A stretch of 64,000 bases of DNA from Saccharothrix carnea (GTDB taxonomy: Bacteria > Actinomycetota > Actinomycetes > Mycobacteriales > Pseudonocardiaceae). Positions 47,435 through 58,813 of the stretch are shown here, one piece after another (position 1 is the stretch's first letter; each line of letters starts with the position of its first letter). The position numbers were made by a program, and so were the translations under genes. The stretch is from NCBI RefSeq assembly GCF_003014735.1, contig NZ_PYAX01000002.1, positions 496,001-560,000 of the forward strand. Direction: 5' to 3'. The notes beneath the pieces are model-generated. The model was not told the origin of the DNA. It made no database searches and saw only the letters and a program-made list of their open reading frames with translations.

Positions 47435-48943
47435 ATGACCGAAGCGACCACGACTGCCCGCCACTCCCTGTGGTCGGAAGCTATCCCGCACGGCCGGTTC
47501 CCCGTGCTCAACGGTGAGACCGCGGTGGACGTCGCGGTGGTCGGCGGCGGCATCGCCGGTATCACCACGGCGTTGCTGCTCAAGCGCGCGGGCCTGCGGG
47601 TCGTGGTGGTGGAGGCCGACCGGGTGGGCAGCGGTGTCAGCGGCAACAACACCGCCAAGGTCACCGCCCTGCAGTCCACTGTGTACTCGACCATCGAGCG
47701 CAAGCACGGCGCCGAGGCCGCGGCGGACTACGCCAACGGCAACACGGCCGCCGTGGAGAGGGTCGCGTCGCTGGTGTCCGAACTGGGCCTCGACTGCGAC
47801 CTGCGGCGGCTGCCCGCGTACACCTTCGCGTTCGACGAGCAGGACCTGCCCACGATCGAGGACGAGGCCAAGGCCGCGGTCAAGGCGGGGCTGCCGGTGT
47901 CCCGCGATCGCGGCGAGCTGATGGGCGTGCCGTTCCCGGTGGCCGGTGCGGTGCGGCTGGACGACCAGCTGGCGATCCACCCGGTGAAGTACGTGCGCGG
48001 CCTGGCCGAGGTCGTGGACGGCGACGGCTCGCGGGTCTACGAGGCGAGCCGGGTGCTGCGCATCGAGGACGGCACGCCGACCCGCGTCCACACCGACCGG
48101 GGCACGGTCGTCGCCGAACGAGTGGTGATCGCCACGCACTACCCGATCCTCGACCGGGGCCTGTACTTCGCCCGCCTGGAGCCGATGCGCTCGTACTGCG
48201 TGGCGGTCCGGCTCGCGTCGGGCACACCGCCGACGGGCCTGGCGATCAGCGCGGGCAGCCCGACGTGGTCGCTGGCGCGGTCCGGCGACCTGCTGATCGT
48301 GGCCGGGCAGGGCCACCCGACCGGCGAGTCGCCCGGTGAGCCGTACGACGAGCTGACCAAGTTCGCCGCCGAGCACTGGGACGTCGCCGAGGTCACCCAC
48401 CGCTGGTCCGCGCAGGACCCGACCTCCTACGACAACCTGCCGATGATCGGCCCCTACACACCGGGATCGTCCACGTTGTACGGCGCGACCGGGTTCATGA
48501 AGTGGGGCTTGAGCAACGGCACCATGGCCGCCGAGCTGCTGACCGACCTCGTCGTGGGCCGGGAGAACCCGTTGGCCGACCGGTTCAGCCCGCACCGGCT
48601 GAGCCTCGGGTCGGCGCCCAAGCTGGCGAAGCTGAACGCGAAGGTGGCCGTCGACCTGGTCGGCGACCGGCTGAAGTCGGCCGAGGTCGACTCGGTGGCG
48701 GACGTGCCGGTCGGCGAGGCGCGGGTGGTGCGCGACGGCTCCGGCAAGGCCGGGGTGTACCGGGACGAGACGGGAGGCGTGCACGGCGTGTCGTTGCGCT
48801 GCACGCACCTGGGCTGCCTGGTGCGGTTCAACTCCGCCGAGCGCAGCTGGGACTGCCCGTGCCACGGGTCGCGGTTCGACGTGGACGGCGCGGTGCTCGA
48901 AGGCCCGGCGACCAAGCCGCTGCCGCGCCGCGATCCCGCCTGA
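47435..48943 (+). CDS. FAD-dependent oxidoreductase with C-terminal Rieske domain
   Basis: A 502-residue fusion. Residues about 30-370 are a DAO-type flavin oxidoreductase ([41 protein letters not shown]). Residues about 400-500 form a Rieske [2Fe-2S] domain with CTHLGC and CPCHGSRFD ligands. Electron transfer between flavin and Rieske centre is expected. It is coupled to the ligase gene (TGATG). Substrate unknown. Confidence 0.9.
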
Positions 48944-52722: not shown

Positions 52723-54072
52723 CTACCGCGTCGGCGGCACGTGCAGCCGGGAGCCGGTGGCCTCGGTGCTCGGCCACCACGCGCCGTCCTCGGCGACGTA
52801 GAACAGCCGCGGCCCGATCTCGCTGATCGTGCGCACCGCGTCCACCAACCGGTCGACGTGGTCCACGCCGATGCCCAGGCCGAGACTGGCGCGGACGGCC
52901 GTGCGCTCGCCCGACAGGTGCCTGGCCAGCGGCCTCGCGCAGAAGTCGCCGTGCCGGACGCCGATGCCGTACTCCACCGACAGGGCGGTCGCGAGCAACG
53001 CCGAGTCCACGCCGTCCACGGTGAACGCGACCATCGCCACCCGTTCGCTGGTGGTGCCGAACAACGACACCTCGACCACCTCCGGTATCTCGGCCAGCCC
53101 CGAGCGCAACCGGTTGAGCAGCACCGATTCGTACGGCATCACCGAGTTCCAGGCGGTCTGCAGCGTCTGGCACGCCGCCGCCAACGCCACCGCGCCGACC
53201 ACGTTCGCCCCGCCCGCCTCGTGCCGGGCCGCACCCGATGCCCACGTCACCGTGCCGTCGCCGACGTGCACCGTGGCGCCGCAGCCCGCCAGGTGCGGCC
53301 GTGCGGCGGCCAGCCAGTCCGGCCGTCCCGCCAGCACGCCGATGCCGAACGGCGCGTACATCTTGTGCCCGCTGAACGCCACGTAGTCCACGTCCAGGGC
53401 GGTGATGTCGATCGGCTGGTGCGCGGCCAACTGCGCCGCGTCCACCGCGATCCGCGCGCCGTGCCGGCGGCACAGCGCGACGATGTCCTCCAACGGCATC
53501 AGCTCGCCGGTCACGTTGAGCACCGCGCTGACCGCCACCAGCACGGGCCCGCCGAGCGTGCGCAGCGCGTCGTCCAACGACGCCAGCATGTCCTCCACCG
53601 ACGACGGGATCGGCAGCCGGTGCACGTCCTGCCACGGCAGCAGCAGGGCGTGGTGCTCGCTGGAGAACACCACCACCGTCGTGCCGTCCGGGACGGCCAT
53701 CGCCAGCAGCTTCACCGCGTCGGTCGTGTTGCGGGTGAGTACCAGGTAGTCGTCGTCCCGGCAGCCGATGAACGCGCGGACCACGCGCCGCGCCTCTTCG
53801 AACCGGGCCGTGGACATCGCCGACAACGTGCCCGAACCCTCGTGCGCGCTGGCGTACCACGGCAGGAACGCCTGCGCGGCCTCGGCGACGGCGACCATGC
53901 ACGGCGCGGTGGCGGCGTGGTCGAAGTTCGCGAACGACGCCGTCGCGCCGGAGCCCAGCGGCACCTGGAGGTCCGCGCCGAGCACGGCGGGCAGCACCGA
54001 CCGCGCGCCCTCGGTCGGCCGGTGCTGGGCGAACGGCCTGACCGTCCGGTCCGGGTCGAGGAACAGGGTCAC
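52723..54072 (-). CDS. SufS-like class V aminotransferase/cysteine desulfurase
   Basis: A 449-residue fold-type I PLP enzyme. It has LTRNTTDAVKLLA (phosphate loop), VDAAQLAAHQPID with Asp211, FSGHKMYAPFG with Schiff-base Lys237, and RHGDFCARPL with Cys378 at the SufS persulfide position (RxGHHCA). The conserved Cys supports sulfur removal from cysteine or an analogue rather than simple transamination. GTG start overlaps the cysteine-synthase-like stop as GTGA. Last gene of the SAT/JAMM-exporter operon. Confidence 0.85.
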   Translation of the reverse strand: MTLFLDPDRTVRPFAQHRPTEGARSVLPAVLGADLQVPLGSGATASFANFDHAATAPCMVAVAEAAQAFLPWYASAHEGSGTLSAMSTARFEEARRVVRAFIGCRDDDYLVLTRNTTDAVKLLAMAVPDGTTVVVFSSEHHALLLPWQDVHRLPIPSSVEDMLASLDDALRTLGGPVLVAVSAVLNVTGELMPLEDIVALCRRHGARIAVDAAQLAAHQPIDITALDVDYVAFSGHKMYAPFGIGVLAGRPDWLAAARPHLAGCGATVHVGDGTVTWASGAARHEAGGANVVGAVALAAACQTLQTAWNSVMPYESVLLNRLRSGLAEIPEVVEVSLFGTTSERVAMVAFTVDGVDSALLATALSVEYGIGVRHGDFCARPLARHLSGERTAVRASLGLGIGVDHVDRLVDAVRTISEIGPRLFYVAEDGAWWPSTEATGSRLHVPPTR

Positions 54073-55049
54073 CGCGCTTCTCCGGCGAGTGAGCCCTCGG
54101 CGAAGGCGACATCCGCGTCGACGTCCTCGGGCAGCGCGTCCAGGTAGTCGTGCACGCCGTCGTAGGCGAAGGTCAGCACCCGCGACCCGGCGGGCAGCGT
54201 CCGCGCCACCCGGCACGCGGCCACCAGGTTGGCCGCGGACGAGATCCCGACAGCCAACCCTTCGGTCCGCATCACGCGCTGCATCATCTGCCGCGCGTCC
54301 TCGAACGACACCTGCTCCTCGTCGGTGATCAGACTCAAGTCGAGCACCGCGGGCACCAACCCGACCGCCAAGCCCTGGATCGGGTGCGTGACGAACCTGT
54401 TCTCCCGCAACGAACAACCCTCCGGCTGCACGGCCACGATCCGCATCGACGGGTTGTGCTCGGACAGCACCCGGCCGACACCGGTGAGGTGACCGCCCGT
54501 GCCGACACCGGCGACCAGCGCGTCCGGCAGCCGTGCCCCGAGCGCGTCCATGATCTCCACCGCCGTGGTCCGCTCGTGGATCGCCGGGTTCGCCGGGTTG
54601 GCCTGCTGGTTGAGCATCACCCAGTCCGGGTTGTCGAACAGCAGCCCCAACGCCATCTCGGCGTGCGAGTTGTTTCCCAGCGTGTGGTCGGACAGCCGCA
54701 CCTCGGCGCCGTAGCTCCGCAGCAACCGCTGCTTGGCCGGGCTGTAATTGTCCGGGATCACCAGCACCAGCCGGTAACCCAGGATCGCCGCCGCCATGGC
54801 CAGCCCGATGCCGGTGTTGCCGCCGGTGGACTCGATGATCGTCTGCCCGCTGCCGCGGACCAGCTCACCGTCCTTCTCCGCCTCCAGGATCATGTTCAAC
54901 GCGATGCGCACCTTGTGGCTGCCACCGGGGTTGAGCAGCTCCAGCTTCACCAGCAGTTCGCGGTCCAGGTCCGGTGCCAGCCGGGACAGCCGCACGATCG
55001 GCGTGTCGCCGATCGCGTCCAACACCGAGTCGGCGATGCCCTTGCCCAT
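54069..55049 (-). CDS. Cysteine-synthase-family PLP enzyme
   Basis: A 326-residue fold-type II PLP enzyme. PLP Lys46 lies in NPGGSHKVR, where canonical CysK/CysM read NPGGSVKDR. ESTGGNTGIGLA binds the substrate carboxylate, and VAGVGTGGHLTGVGR binds the phosphate. The family replaces the acetoxy group of O-acetylserine by sulfide or another nucleophile; CysM-type enzymes use a thiocarboxylated carrier protein. It follows the JAMM fusion by 3 bp. The SHK change suggests an altered nucleophile or acceptor. Confidence 0.88.
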   Translation of the reverse strand: MGKGIADSVLDAIGDTPIVRLSRLAPDLDRELLVKLELLNPGGSHKVRIALNMILEAEKDGELVRGSGQTIIESTGGNTGIGLAMAAAILGYRLVLVIPDNYSPAKQRLLRSYGAEVRLSDHTLGNNSHAEMALGLLFDNPDWVMLNQQANPANPAIHERTTAVEIMDALGARLPDALVAGVGTGGHLTGVGRVLSEHNPSMRIVAVQPEGCSLRENRFVTHPIQGLAVGLVPAVLDLSLITDEEQVSFEDARQMMQRVMRTEGLAVGISSAANLVAACRVARTLPAGSRVLTFAYDGVHDYLDALPEDVDADVAFAEGSLAGEAR

Positions 55050-55052
55050 GTC

Positions 55053-56498
55053 TCACTCCTGCTTGGCGTGCGGGGGGACGGTTTTCTCGCGCGGCGCGCC
55101 GAAGGTCGCGATCGCGGTGTAGCGGCCGAGGTCGGCGTCGAAGTCGAACAGCCGCGCGCCGAGCACCTCGTCCCGCGAGGTGTCCACGACGAGGTGGCGC
55201 ACCGGGTAGACCGGCGTGCCCTCGTAGACGGCGAACCGGTGGTCCTCGTCGCTGAAGTACGCGCCCGCGTCGGGGTGCGAGTGGTAGATCACGCGGACCG
55301 GGTCGTCGCCGTCGAACGAGTCCTCCAGCTCGCGCAGGTCGTCCACGCCGAACGCGTACCCGGTCCGGCTCTCCCGGTCGTAGACCCCGGGCCGGTCCTC
55401 GATCACGTTGACGCAGTCCTTCACGCCGCTGTCCCGGATGAACCCGCACGCCTCGGACGGGTAGCGGGCCAGCACGTGCCGGTAGACCTCGGCGAGCGCC
55501 GCGTCGGTCGGCCGCCCGTCGTCGACCGCGGGCACGACGGCGGCGTTCGCGGGCGGTGGCAGCGCCTTGCGCTGGTTCCACTGCGTCACGCCGAACGCGC
55601 CCAGGATCACCAACGTCAGCAGCACGTCGACCCAGCCGAACGACGCACCCTCGATCACCACGGCCAGGAACTGCGCGATGATCGGGAACAGCACGAACGC
55701 GAACGACACGATGACCGTGTCCATCCGCTGGAGCAGCCAGAAGTACACCGCGAAGCCGATGGCGGACGCCACGATGCCCAGGTAGATCGTCGCGCCGACG
55801 CTGCGGGCGGTGAACGCCTCCGCGCCGGGCCGTTCGACGATCAGGCCCAGGCCCGTGAGCAGCACGCCGCCGACGGCCATCGGCATCGTGTTCAACGTCA
55901 GCGCGGGCATCCGGCCGCCGTGCTTCTTGATCATGATGTAGGCCAGCGCGTGGATCACCGCCGCGCCCAGCAGCGCGGCCACGCCGATCACGTTCGTCAC
56001 CGCGACGCCCTGCGAGTGCACGATCAGCGTGCCCAGCGCGGCGAACGCGACCAGCACGGCGGCGGCCTGCGTCGTGGTGATGCGCGTGCGCAGGATCGGC
56101 ACGCTGAACACGATCATCAGGATCGACACCGACGACACGCAGATCGACGCCAGGCCGGACGACACGTACAGCTCGCCGTAGTTGAACAGGAAGAACGGCA
56201 CGGTGAAGTAGCAGCCGACCATGAAGGCGAAGAACCAGCCCATGCCGCTCGGGTAGCGCAGCGGCTTGCGCAGCACGAGGCAGGCCGCGATGAACGCCGG
56301 CCCGGCGACGATGAAGCGCAGGCCGGACGCCGTGAGCGGCGGCATGTCGGTGATCGCGAGCTTGATCGCGATCCAGGTCGAGCCCCAGATCAGCACGACG
56401 GCGACGAAGCTCACCGCGATCAACGCCTTGTGCTGCGGGGGACGACCGGGCGTCGAGGCGGCGGCGGGCCGCGGCGCCTCGATCTCAGGAGCGGACAT
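55053..56498 (-). CDS. EamA/DMT exporter fused to a JAMM (Mov34/M67) isopeptidase
   Basis: A single 481-residue frame. Residues about 25-310 are ten-helix EamA permease (IWGSTWIAIKLAITDMPPL, RFIVAGPAFIAAC; second repeat after about 165). Residues about 330-460 are a JAMM domain with all catalytic positions: Glu349 in YPSEACGF, then H406-S-H408, Ser416 and Asp419 in the HxHx7SxxD motif. DMT proteins have a cytoplasmic C-terminus, so the peptidase faces the cytosol. JAMM enzymes such as Mec release cysteine from the carrier CysO; EamA members export cysteine and O-acetylserine. Between the SAT gene (85 bp) and cysteine synthase (3 bp). Confidence 0.9.
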   Translation of the reverse strand: MSAPEIEAPRPAAASTPGRPPQHKALIAVSFVAVVLIWGSTWIAIKLAITDMPPLTASGLRFIVAGPAFIAACLVLRKPLRYPSGMGWFFAFMVGCYFTVPFFLFNYGELYVSSGLASICVSSVSILMIVFSVPILRTRITTTQAAAVLVAFAALGTLIVHSQGVAVTNVIGVAALLGAAVIHALAYIMIKKHGGRMPALTLNTMPMAVGGVLLTGLGLIVERPGAEAFTARSVGATIYLGIVASAIGFAVYFWLLQRMDTVIVSFAFVLFPIIAQFLAVVIEGASFGWVDVLLTLVILGAFGVTQWNQRKALPPPANAAVVPAVDDGRPTDAALAEVYRHVLARYPSEACGFIRDSGVKDCVNVIEDRPGVYDRESRTGYAFGVDDLRELEDSFDGDDPVRVIYHSHPDAGAYFSDEDHRFAVYEGTPVYPVRHLVVDTSRDEVLGARLFDFDADLGRYTAIATFGAPREKTVPPHAKQE

Positions 56499-56583: not shown

Positions 56584-57591
56584 TCAGCCGGCCGCGGTGC
56601 GGGGCAGCGGGGCCACCCGCGACTTGCGGGCCAACGGGATGCCGACGGTCACCTCGGACCCGCCGTGGCTGACCCGGATGTGCGCCACCGAGCGCAGCCC
56701 GCGCGCCCGCGGCGAGATCTGGAACGTGAGGCACTTGGCGTTGTTCTGCAGCACGGACCAGTCCCCCGCGGCCAGCGGCAGCTGGGTGGGCCCGAGCAGC
56801 TGCACCTCGAGGCCCGGGCGGTCGAGGTCGTTGCCGTGCAACCGGAAGCGGTACTCGCCGAGCCCTTCCACGCCGTAGACGGTGATCGGGCGCGGGCCCG
56901 CGACCATCTGGTACTGGTGCAGCACGGCCACCTGGGCGCCGGCGGGCACGTTCGAGCGCACCAGGGCGTGGCTGCCGATCATGACGTCGTCGCCGACCGT
57001 GATCGGACCGAGCACGCGGGCGAACCCGCCGACCTGCACCCGGTCGCCGAGCGTGGGGTGCCGCCTGCCCGCGGCGTTGTCCGCGATGCCCAGCGCCCCG
57101 AGCACCACGCCCTGCAGGATGTAGCAGTCCGCACCGATGGTGGCGTCCTCGCCGATCACCGTGCCGATGCCGTGGTCGATGATGAACCGGGGGCCGATGG
57201 TCGCGCCGGGGTGGATCTCCACGCCCGTGCGGACCTTCGCCGCTTCGGAGATCTTGCGGGCCAGCACGCGTTGCCGCCACTGGTCGCCGCACGGCGTCGT
57301 CAGCACCTCGTGCGCGACGCGATAGGCCAGCACGGCCTCGAAGCACGCGTACGCCTCCAGCACGTACTGCCACGAGCCCAGGCTCGCCGGGTCGCGCCGC
57401 GCGAGCGCCAGCAGGTCGCCGACTGCCAGGTCGGCGGCGCGCCGGACCAAGGCGGCGGAATCGAGACCGAGTGCGGCCGAATCGGACGCGTGCGGTGCGA
57501 GCACGTTCTCCGCCACCCGAACTATTTCCGGGTAAGCGGCGTCCGGTTCCCGATCAACGGGACAGGCGGACTCCTCTCGAACGACAGACAC
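56584..57591 (-). CDS. Serine O-acetyltransferase with extra C-terminal domain
   Basis: A 335-residue left-handed beta-helix acetyltransferase. VRTGVEIHPGATIG, FIIDHGIGTVIGE with catalytic Asp139-His140, and GDRVQVGG coils span about 120-225. It makes O-acetylserine from serine and acetyl-CoA. After about 235 an unusual beta-rich domain of 90-100 residues follows (VYGVEGLGEYRFRLHG, QISPRARGLRSVAHIRVSHG), resembling an IPT/TIG or filamin-like fold not found in CysE. GTG start with GGGGGA 5 nt upstream. First gene of the four-gene operon. Confidence 0.85.
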   Translation of the reverse strand: MSVVREESACPVDREPDAAYPEIVRVAENVLAPHASDSAALGLDSAALVRRAADLAVGDLLALARRDPASLGSWQYVLEAYACFEAVLAYRVAHEVLTTPCGDQWRQRVLARKISEAAKVRTGVEIHPGATIGPRFIIDHGIGTVIGEDATIGADCYILQGVVLGALGIADNAAGRRHPTLGDRVQVGGFARVLGPITVGDDVMIGSHALVRSNVPAGAQVAVLHQYQMVAGPRPITVYGVEGLGEYRFRLHGNDLDRPGLEVQLLGPTQLPLAAGDWSVLQNNAKCLTFQISPRARGLRSVAHIRVSHGGSEVTVGIPLARKSRVAPLPRTAAG

Positions 57592-57985
57592 CGGTTCCCC
57601 CTAGTCAACAGATGATGTCGCGGTCGGCGACATTACCTCGGTTTCCACACTTCGGCGACCGCAGTTTTGCGGCTCGGCTCGGCCGACCGGGCGGCTTGTT
57701 GCGCCGATCGGTCGCACTTCGTTACGCCGTCATCGGGCACGTTCACTGCATTGGCCCAGTGGCGGAGATCGAGATTAACGTAGATTAATAAATCCGAAAC
57801 ACATCGTAGTGCGATACTTCACCCGGATGTCCCAACGACCTGCATGCGCGAACTATATGGCCAGGTCACGTGGCATAACCGGCCTGTCCTCCGGCTTGCC
57901 CGGTCCGCTAGCATCCCGTCATCGCACCCTTGGCCGCCCGGTCGACCGGCGGCCGCAATGGTCGTGCGGGTACTGGGGAGGCACG
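57592..57985. other. Divergent control region between the SAT operon and the methyltransferase gene
   Basis: 394 bp without a gene. It contains the inverted repeat at 57615-57633 and an AT-rich island at about 57770-57815 (attaacgtagattaataaat), the lowest-GC stretch I noticed in the window, which may carry promoters. Confidence 0.6.
57615..57633. promoter_or_regulatory. Inverted repeat before the SAT operon
   Basis: ATGTCGC (57615-57621) and GCGACAT (57627-57633) are perfect 7-bp halves around GGTCG, 23 bp upstream of the SAT start codon. Candidate operator or leader hairpin. Confidence 0.45.
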
Positions 57986-58813
57986 TTGTCCGGGGGTTTG
58001 TCGCAGCCTGCCGTGGATTTCCACGCCTTCGAGTTGTCGCGCTGGCAACGCGTGGTGGACAGATATCACCGATCCTGGGGCGAGTTGACCGGTTCAGCCG
58101 GTTCGGGACTGCTCGACGTGATCGGCGTCGAGCCCGGAACGCGGTTGCTGGACGTCGCGACGGGACCGGGATATGTCGCGGCTGCGGCTTCCCGAAGAGG
58201 GGCGCGGTCGGTCGGTGTCGACTTCTCCGCGCCGATGGTCGCGAAAGCGCGGGCGTTGTTCCCGGAGGTCGAGTTCCGCGAGGGCGACGCGCTCGACCTG
58301 CCGTTCGGCGACGGCTCGTTCGACCGGGTCGTGATGAACTTCGGGCTGCTGCACCTGGGCGACCCGGAGCGGGCGATCCGGGAGGCGTTCCGGGTCCTGG
58401 TGCCCGGCGGGGTCTTCGGCTTCACGGTGTGGGCGTCGCCGGAGGAGGCGGTGGGGTTCTCGCTGCTCTCCGACGCGATCATGGAGTTCGGCGAGCCCGT
58501 GGAGCTGCCCGAGGGTCCCGACTTCTACCACTACAGCGAGCCGGACAACTGCCGCGCGTCGCTGGCCGCCGCGGGGTTCGTCGACACCGGTGCCGAGGTG
58601 CTGGACCTCGACTGGCACCTGGCGAGCGTGGACGACCTGTTCCCGGCGTACCGGCAGGCGACCGTGCGCACCGGTGCCCTCCTGGACGGCCAGAGCGACC
58701 GCGACCGTGAGAAGATCGAACTGCGGGTGCGGGAGACGGCGGCGCGGTTCTCGGACGGGGACGGCGGGCTGGTGATCCCGATGCCCGCGGTCGCGGTCCG
58801 GGGTCGGAGGTGA
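57986..58813 (+). CDS. Class I SAM-dependent methyltransferase (UbiE type)
   Basis: A 275-residue methyltransferase with RLLDVATGPGYVAAAA, SVGVDFSAPMV, LPFGDGSFDRVVMNFGLLHL and VLVPGGVFGFTVWASP. The start is taken as TTG at 57986, which follows GGGGAGG by 4 nt; longer in-frame upstream sequence is not family-like. It is divergent from the SAT operon and could modify its product. The hemerythrin gene follows. Confidence 0.85.
   Translation: MSGGLSQPAVDFHAFELSRWQRVVDRYHRSWGELTGSAGSGLLDVIGVEPGTRLLDVATGPGYVAAAASRRGARSVGVDFSAPMVAKARALFPEVEFREGDALDLPFGDGSFDRVVMNFGLLHLGDPERAIREAFRVLVPGGVFGFTVWASPEEAVGFSLLSDAIMEFGEPVELPEGPDFYHYSEPDNCRASLAAAGFVDTGAEVLDLDWHLASVDDLFPAYRQATVRTGALLDGQSDRDREKIELRVRETAARFSDGDGGLVIPMPAVAVRGRR

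Follow-up and report, generated by a model that had tools for sequence, protein, structure and literature searches.

A rare, conserved fusion of an EamA-type permease with a JAMM isopeptidase-type domain in a putative variant sulfur-carrier cysteine operon

To our knowledge, the JAMM peptidases that act in ubiquitin-like systems are either soluble on their own or components of soluble complexes. If one were joined to a small-molecule transporter, a ubiquitin-like carrier would be linked to export.

The chemistry of CysO, CysM, Mec and MoeZ, with desulfurases as possible sulfur donors, is described in PMC3227635. Thiocarboxylation requires an accessible glycine end on the carrier (PMC6006322; PMC3227635), and in platensimycin producers capped carriers need a JAMM enzyme (PMC6006322). 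Iyer, Burroughs and Aravind (2006; PMC1779556) listed an uncharacterised operon class, 4c, comprised of a ThiS/MoaD carrier, an E1-rhodanese, a JAB protein and a cysteine synthase; P. aeruginosa (‘Paer’) was listed under this class and sulfur transfer coupled to cysteine production was suggested. The P. aeruginosa genes PA2100 to PA2106 are annotated as MdrR2, EamA, Mov34/JAMM, MoeB, cysteine synthase, acetyltransferase and AlaS-domain protein (PA2100-PA2103: PMC9431628; PA2101-PA2104 and PA2106: PMC9866376; PA2104 and PA2105: PMC13256707). PA2104 is a probable cysteine synthase in PMC12800425, where it is guessed that PA2104 or PA1061 supports growth; PA2104 is not named in PMC12895370. In PMC9431628, N-acetylcysteine (NAC) changed P. 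aeruginosa expression by a log2 of +1.7 (PA2101), +1.2 (PA2102), +0.8 (PA2103) and +0.7 (PA2100), and PA2104-PA2106 were missing from the response table. The NAC response was set aside as a weak thiol signal: NAC is interpreted there chiefly as chelating zinc, and zinc starvation dominates the data (PMC9431628).

The window analyzed here is a stretch of 64,000 nucleotides from Saccharothrix carnea. On its minus strand, positions 55053..56498 encode a 481-aa protein in a single open reading frame with Pfam EamA and Prok-JAB matches. The unbroken frame joining a permease to a JAMM domain, claimed in the original prediction from the letters of the DNA, is thus present. The permease half (residues 22-312; 55563..56435, minus strand) contained two EamA repeats, and the ten-helix EamA/DMT permease first proposed was recovered as a DMT fold by model with ten predicted transmembrane helices; loop charge gave an N-in/C-in topology. 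The best solved-structure match of this half was 5i20, which we take to be YddG. The linker (residues 313-326; 55521..55562, minus strand) was of low confidence (pLDDT <50 at 313-321 in the structure model) and varied in length among relatives, with gapped columns in an alignment of fused proteins (A1). Residues 327-467 (55098..55520, minus strand) adopted a JAMM fold in the predicted structure, covering the stretch (330-460) on whose fold the original prediction had staked its case. This half was placed on the cytoplasmic side by a positive-inside count on the predicted topology. The full-length model had a pTM of 0.57, with the mutual orientation of the two domains uncertain.

The JAMM signature is EXnHS/THX7SXXD (PMC300881). 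Residues E349, H406, H408, S416 and D419 of the window protein fit this signature, and residues 406-419 read HSHPDAGAYFSDED. The Glu349 codon lies at 55452..55454 (minus strand), Glu349 being the putative acid/base by analogy with the role given in PMC300881, and the HSHx7SxxD motif (His406-Asp419) lies at 55242..55283 (minus strand). All five residues, which the original prediction had picked out, were invariant across the 23 rows of A1. Alignment A1 was comprised of the window protein and 22 of 24 fused clusters from one search; P0006 and P0023 (shorter) and P0025 (a different fusion) were omitted. The motif was kept in 26 of 26 fused clusters found (P0006, P0023, P0080 and P0081 by eye). 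P0026, a 228-aa fragment encoded on a 1.1-kb contig and likewise starting within permease sequence, is not in this count. P0025 (Myxococcota, 396 aa) joined a JAMM domain with a similar YHSHPDAGAYFS stretch to PF14306, presumably an ATP-sulfurylase PUA-like domain, a possible sulfur link.

Between the window gene and the genes of L088, L107, L108 and L089, dN/dS was 0.13, 0.13, 0.20 and 0.32 for the EamA half and 0.24, 0.25, 0.14 and 0.40 for the JAMM half. These ratios point to purifying selection on both halves. Judged from its sequence, the fusion is probably functional.

Fused proteins were named from Saccharothrix, Actinosynnema, Actinocrispum, Actinokineospora, Melissospora and Nonomuraea, plus a Streptosporangiaceae MAG; the possibility raised at the outset, that the halves are separate in every relative, was contradicted by the 26 fused clusters. 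The JAMM half was found in 6 of 390 Pseudonocardiaceae genomes (E 1e-20), always in a long open frame. In a separate draw, a whole-protein query matched 5 of 150 genomes (E 1e-20), with three full-length matches and two to the permease only. The class-level draw (1 of 394 genomes) and the phylum-level draw (1 of 396) each returned the window genome. Among the viral contigs searched, no relative was confirmed.

The fusion gene is the second gene of a minus-strand operon. The first gene encodes a serine acetyltransferase (SAT)-like protein of 335 aa with a C-terminal extension (56584..57591). The fusion gene is followed by a cysteine synthase-like PLP enzyme (CysK-like; 326 aa; 54069..55049) and a SufS-like cysteine desulfurase (52723..54072; 449 aa if the start is GTG). 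Successive genes are separated by 85 bp and 3 bp and finally overlap by 4 bp; this overlap, of the desulfurase GTG with the CysK stop, was chosen to match L108. On the plus strand, a divergent class I SAM methyltransferase (57809..58813; Methyltransf_11 5e-24), its true start probably internal, adjoins the operon next to the SAT-like gene; such a neighbor is present in five of the six fusion genomes. The same order, including the methyltransferase, was found in L088, L107 and L108 from the window's genus and in Actinocrispum (L008/L089). The Actinokineospora locus (L109) contained SAT, EamA-JAMM and CysK genes, then an AlaX gene (tRNA_SAD 2.1e-9) in place of the desulfurase, and gave no desulfurase or methyltransferase match over 19.5 kb (tblastn 1e-5). 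Elsewhere in the window, 47435-48943 (plus strand) encodes an FAD-dependent oxidoreductase with a C-terminal stretch that resembles Rieske iron-sulfur models, under their cut-offs.

A search of genome contigs revealed at least 80 loci, a sample. Among the loci listed there was one fusion (L008), 42 loci with a match over both halves, and 37 others. The 42 were proteobacterial (L009-L047, L049, L050 and L052). Among the matches listed, all 42 carried a divergent MocR-type regulator and, in order, EamA, JAMM, carrier-E1-rhodanese, CysK, SAT and AlaX genes. EamA and JAMM were adjacent separate genes, sharing an open frame in 0 of the 42 listed. JAMM and carrier-E1 shared one frame in 29 of the 42, all Pseudomonas, as a protein of ~630 aa (L020: 10966-12855, 629 aa, by Pfam of the L020 protein). 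The carrier Gly-Gly lies inside the chain in L020 and 28 other Pseudomonas loci, a carrier polyprotein that would need cutting. The JAMM motif, with the same HSHx7SxxD pattern, was found in 42 of the 42 partners listed, and YPEE(C/A)CG surrounded the Glu in 40. Neither the operon context nor these split loci, 42 of 42 among the matches listed, had been part of the original prediction.

Loci with an EamA match only gave no JAMM, CysK, SAT or AlaX match among those listed (0 of 35; tblastn 1e-10; some stretches short). Some carried other genes, namely E1 (L087), aminotransferase V (L051 and L070) and MocR-like (L053). Loci L061 and L071 had matched via JAMM, not EamA. JAMM was located beside a cysteine synthase-like sequence in both L061 (7012-10400; Deltaproteobacteria MAG) and L071 (9068-10460; Omnitrophica MAG); an E1-like sequence was also present in L061, and a matching permease in neither.

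Three enzymes of the window operon were each below their best NCBIfam cut-off and so lie off the main line of their own family. The SAT-like protein (TIGR01172, CysE, 2.5e-43; 147.9 vs 210.65 bits) matched solved SATs at 2e-29 over residues 58-223 and kept the DHG..IGE and RHP motifs. The DHG/RHP motifs were kept in six of six actinobacterial loci and, among the matches listed, in 42 of 42 proteobacterial loci. Loss of the SAT catalytic His was considered and rejected: solved SATs have a similar stretch, and DHG/RHP were kept throughout (42/42 and 6/6). The CysK-like enzyme (PALP 1.1e-73; TIGR01136, cysKM, 5.3e-86) scored 288.7 vs 344.15 bits, and its GGSHK and GGNTG loops were common to the 42 of 42 proteobacterial partners listed. 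In the CysK-like enzymes of both phyla these stretches read NPGGSHK and GGNTG, and in the genome's CysM-like protein NPTGSIK and SGNTG. By sequence the CysK-like enzymes of both phyla are a distinct subfamily, which may use another acceptor. The SufS-like protein (Aminotran_5 4.5e-73 for a 421-aa version) scored 243.5 vs 475.1 bits against the sufS model. Both active-site residues of the SufS type were there: the Cys of HGDFCARP, which aligned with the Cys of the solved SufS-type enzymes 8kg1 and 6mri and was kept in five of five loci carrying the gene, and the PLP Lys (SGHK).

The EamA half scored 37.4 bits against the NCBIfam O-acetylserine/cysteine exporter model NF008523 (cut-off 472); its best NCBIfam model was YedA (81 bits, below the cut-off of 270). 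The sequence does not bear out the original label of ‘cysteine-type exporter’; a cysteine link is supported by the SAT-, CysK- and SufS-like neighbors. We infer a cysteine cargo from the operon alone, not from the permease sequence.

The window genome contained three PF02597 carriers (CysO, MoaD and ThiS), all ending in GG-stop, and had no PF02597 or PF00899 match at the operon. The CysO gene adjoins genes for a Mec-like JAMM protein and a CysM-like protein (named by place and look), the three lying side by side (G000:C3, L090:6155-7930). With this separate set present, the window operon is a second carrier-type set. A MoeZ-like E1-rhodanese is encoded elsewhere in the genome (L094). The five other fusion genomes (G1139 repeats G131) each contained four or five PF02597 matches, none near the operon. 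A carrier with a Gly-Gly end and an E1-rhodanese are available in trans in the window genome and within the operon in proteobacteria, there with the Gly-Gly internal.

At its N terminus, the proteobacterial E1 protein carries a CysO-like domain. The window-genome CysO matched that of L020 at 45% over 47 aa (2e-8; 39 domains), and in hhalign with the L020 carrier domain CysO reached 92% (7e-7) and the genome's own MoaD 0.9%. Pfam ThiS matched this domain weakly (L015, 16.9 bits vs a cut-off of 22.5; L020, no match). The domain ended in LATSGG, LAASGG or LASAGG, and a linker of ~13-33 residues led from there to the E1 domain. An internal Gly-Gly was found in 41 of the 42 loci listed (39 through a pattern, L012 and L047 on inspection by eye); L045 was left out of the count, a frame change breaking its gene. 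Residues 90-116 around the Gly-Gly had pLDDT <50 in a model of the L015 carrier-E1-rhodanese, which was weak (mean pLDDT 66.7, pTM 0.49, 7 rows) and was used for the disordered Gly-Gly linker only. Because an accessible glycine end is needed and the Gly-Gly is internal, the carrier-E1 chain should have to be cut, and the adjacent JAMM is the obvious candidate for cutting it.

The EamA tree placed the fused permeases as sister to the proteobacterial operon permeases against the outgroup (100/97), each forming one group (99/96 and 100/99). This tree contained 23 actinobacterial rows, 16 of 42 operon rows and 33 of 35 outgroup rows (two lost to the length and stop filter); it was midpoint-rooted with long outgroup branches, and the outgroup was only the matches listed by the contig search. 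The JAMM tree was built from 17 of 23 fused rows and 11 of 42 operon rows. It grouped the fused JAMMs with the free actinobacterial ones (100/99) and did not resolve a sister relation between fused and proteobacterial-operon JAMMs. The L071 row in this tree is probably the wrong ORF (branch 9.57). Three free JAMMs fell within the fused group, an apparent sign of fission or repeated fusion. The free JAMMs (P0027-P0031) were 58-64% identical, and the named ones were actinobacterial. In Actinosynnema sp. NPDC023658, an unfused permease (P0073) and an unfused JAMM (P0028) were each listed with 10,992 bases as the longest contig and are probably neighbors. Overall, both phyla keep permease, JAMM, CysK and SAT together, and the fusion partner of JAMM is the permease in actinobacteria and the carrier-E1 in part of the proteobacteria. 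The fusion is not essential, since split forms occur in most of the relatives found.

Our preferred reading is that an EamA/DMT permease and a full-motif JAMM domain in one chain cut cysteine off a ubiquitin-like sulfur carrier at the membrane's inner face and export it through the permease half, a proposal on which our confidence is evenly balanced. The SAT would make O-acetylserine. A MoeZ-like E1-rhodanese, acting in trans, would convert the Gly-Gly end of the carrier, which is likely CysO, to a thiocarboxylate; the sulfur would likely come from the SufS-like desulfurase. The CysK-like enzyme would supply the amino-acid backbone to form carrier-Cys, the JAMM half would hydrolyze carrier-Cys, and the EamA half would export the released product. 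Having these last two steps in one chain would keep cytosolic free cysteine low. We infer a direct hand-over of product from JAMM to permease. In the proteobacterial version JAMM would likely also free the carrier, the Gly-Gly being inside the carrier-E1 chain. We offer more tentatively the wider picture in which JAMM would clip a thiol amino acid off the carrier at the entrance to the EamA channel and the product would bypass the cytosolic pool, an export-dedicated carrier pathway in two phyla with JAMM fused to the exporter (actinobacteria) or to carrier and E1 (many Pseudomonas).

The preferred reading draws support from the permease-JAMM-CysK-SAT grouping, present in 42 of 42 listed loci vs 0 of 35 EamA-only loci. 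Confidence was held at an even balance because of the existing CysO-Mec-CysM-like set, the desulfurase, AlaX and the methyltransferase, and the failed exporter model. A second set needs a reason in a genome that has one; the operon desulfurase would consume cysteine in a route that makes it, a futile cycle unless the purpose is export or a different thiol amino acid; plain cysteine does not account for AlaX and the methyltransferase, which hint at another product; and the actinobacterial operon is without a carrier or E1 gene.

Several of these points fit a different cargo, in which the CysK-like enzyme and JAMM would yield a modified or non-protein thiol amino acid (e.g., S-methylated, or with another backbone) that is released and exported, AlaX guarding against mischarging. 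AlaX occurs in 42 of 42 proteobacterial loci listed and in Actinokineospora, the divergent methyltransferase occurs in five of six fusion genomes, and a plain cysteine-to-cysteine cycle is odd beside a desulfurase. The CysK-like enzymes, under the cysteine synthase cut-offs, have TGGNTG or SGGNTG vs TSGNTG in the genome's own CysM-like protein. The kept SAT motifs, however, make O-acetylserine the simplest acceptor, and in the loci read the two phyla shared no tailoring enzyme other than AlaX, which occurs in one actinobacterial genus; we find a different cargo somewhat doubtful. Alternatively, JAMM might trim a capped or fused sulfur carrier in the manner of QbsD or PtmS1, with the permease fusion being operon compaction only. 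Cutting is needed where the Gly-Gly is internal (41 of 42 listed proteobacterial loci, with the L015 linker disordered in a weak model), capped carriers need JAMM in platensimycin producers (PMC6006322), and the five other fusion genomes hold four or five PF02597 matches each. The actinobacterial operon is nonetheless without such a carrier and still keeps the JAMM motif in 26 of 26 clusters. As the three window-genome carriers end in free Gly-Gly, a trimming protease is left without a visible client there. A hydrolase of carrier-Cys has one, and release of cysteine is preferred for this reason; trimming as the whole explanation seems improbable.

The fusion might also be an accident tolerated because equal amounts are needed, with JAMM working in the cytosol and the permease exporting overflow O-acetylserine or cysteine with no hand-over. 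The separate genes of 42 of 42 listed proteobacterial loci, and apparently of Actinosynnema sp. NPDC023658, agree with this, as does the low-confidence linker of variable length; the fused form is kept, however, in proteins from six named genera with purifying selection on both halves, and we hold an accident to be quite unlikely. Coupled release and export of carrier-bound cysteine remains our preferred reading. The fusion itself is real, rare and conserved, and joins an isopeptidase-type enzyme to a transporter within a variant sulfur-carrier cysteine pathway.

With the mycobacterial CysO/CysM/Mec/MoeZ pathway (PMC3227635) the system shares JAMM, a CysO carrier, an E1-rhodanese and a CysK/CysM-type PLP enzyme; the window operon adds a JAMM-fused exporter and a SAT, and its carrier and E1 lie outside the operon. 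Among solved structures, its CysK-like enzyme is closer in score to the CysK type than to CysM (9jxu, 248.8 vs 3dki, 167.4 bits). The proteobacterial operon belongs to class 4c as defined in PMC1779556, all 42 loci listed having the contents of that class; the window operon, without a PF02597 or PF00899 match, falls outside it. The words permease, acetyltransferase and AlaX are absent from the main text of PMC1779556, and an EamA-JAMM fusion is not among the class contents given in the available part. PA2100-PA2106 agree with the 42 proteobacterial loci in order and annotation, the likeness being one of order and annotation, not of sequence, and in the annotation sources available the P. aeruginosa genes are separate, unlike the fused window gene. 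The QbsD/QbsE, PdtG/PdtH and PtmS1 systems also pair JAMM with a Gly-Gly carrier and an E1-rhodanese; in them, according to PMC6006322 and PMC1779556, sulfur goes to a thiocarboxylic acid via a ligase and JAMM uncaps the carrier. With the EamA/YdeD and YddG-type DMT amino-acid exporters the fusion shares the DMT fold and ten helices, as predicted here; it differs in missing the O-acetylserine/cysteine exporter equivalog and in carrying a peptidase domain. An EamA-JAMM fusion was not found in the open literature searched, most subscription papers lying outside that search. An operon type that was tabulated for P. aeruginosa as uncharacterised in 2006, and that the matches listed here show in 42 proteobacterial loci, becomes a testable proposal, that carrier-bound cysteine, or a relative of it, is made for secretion, and the actinobacterial fusion is the evidence linking permease and peptidase directly. 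The pathway belongs to a known kind, and its novelty lies in the exporter partner and the fusion.
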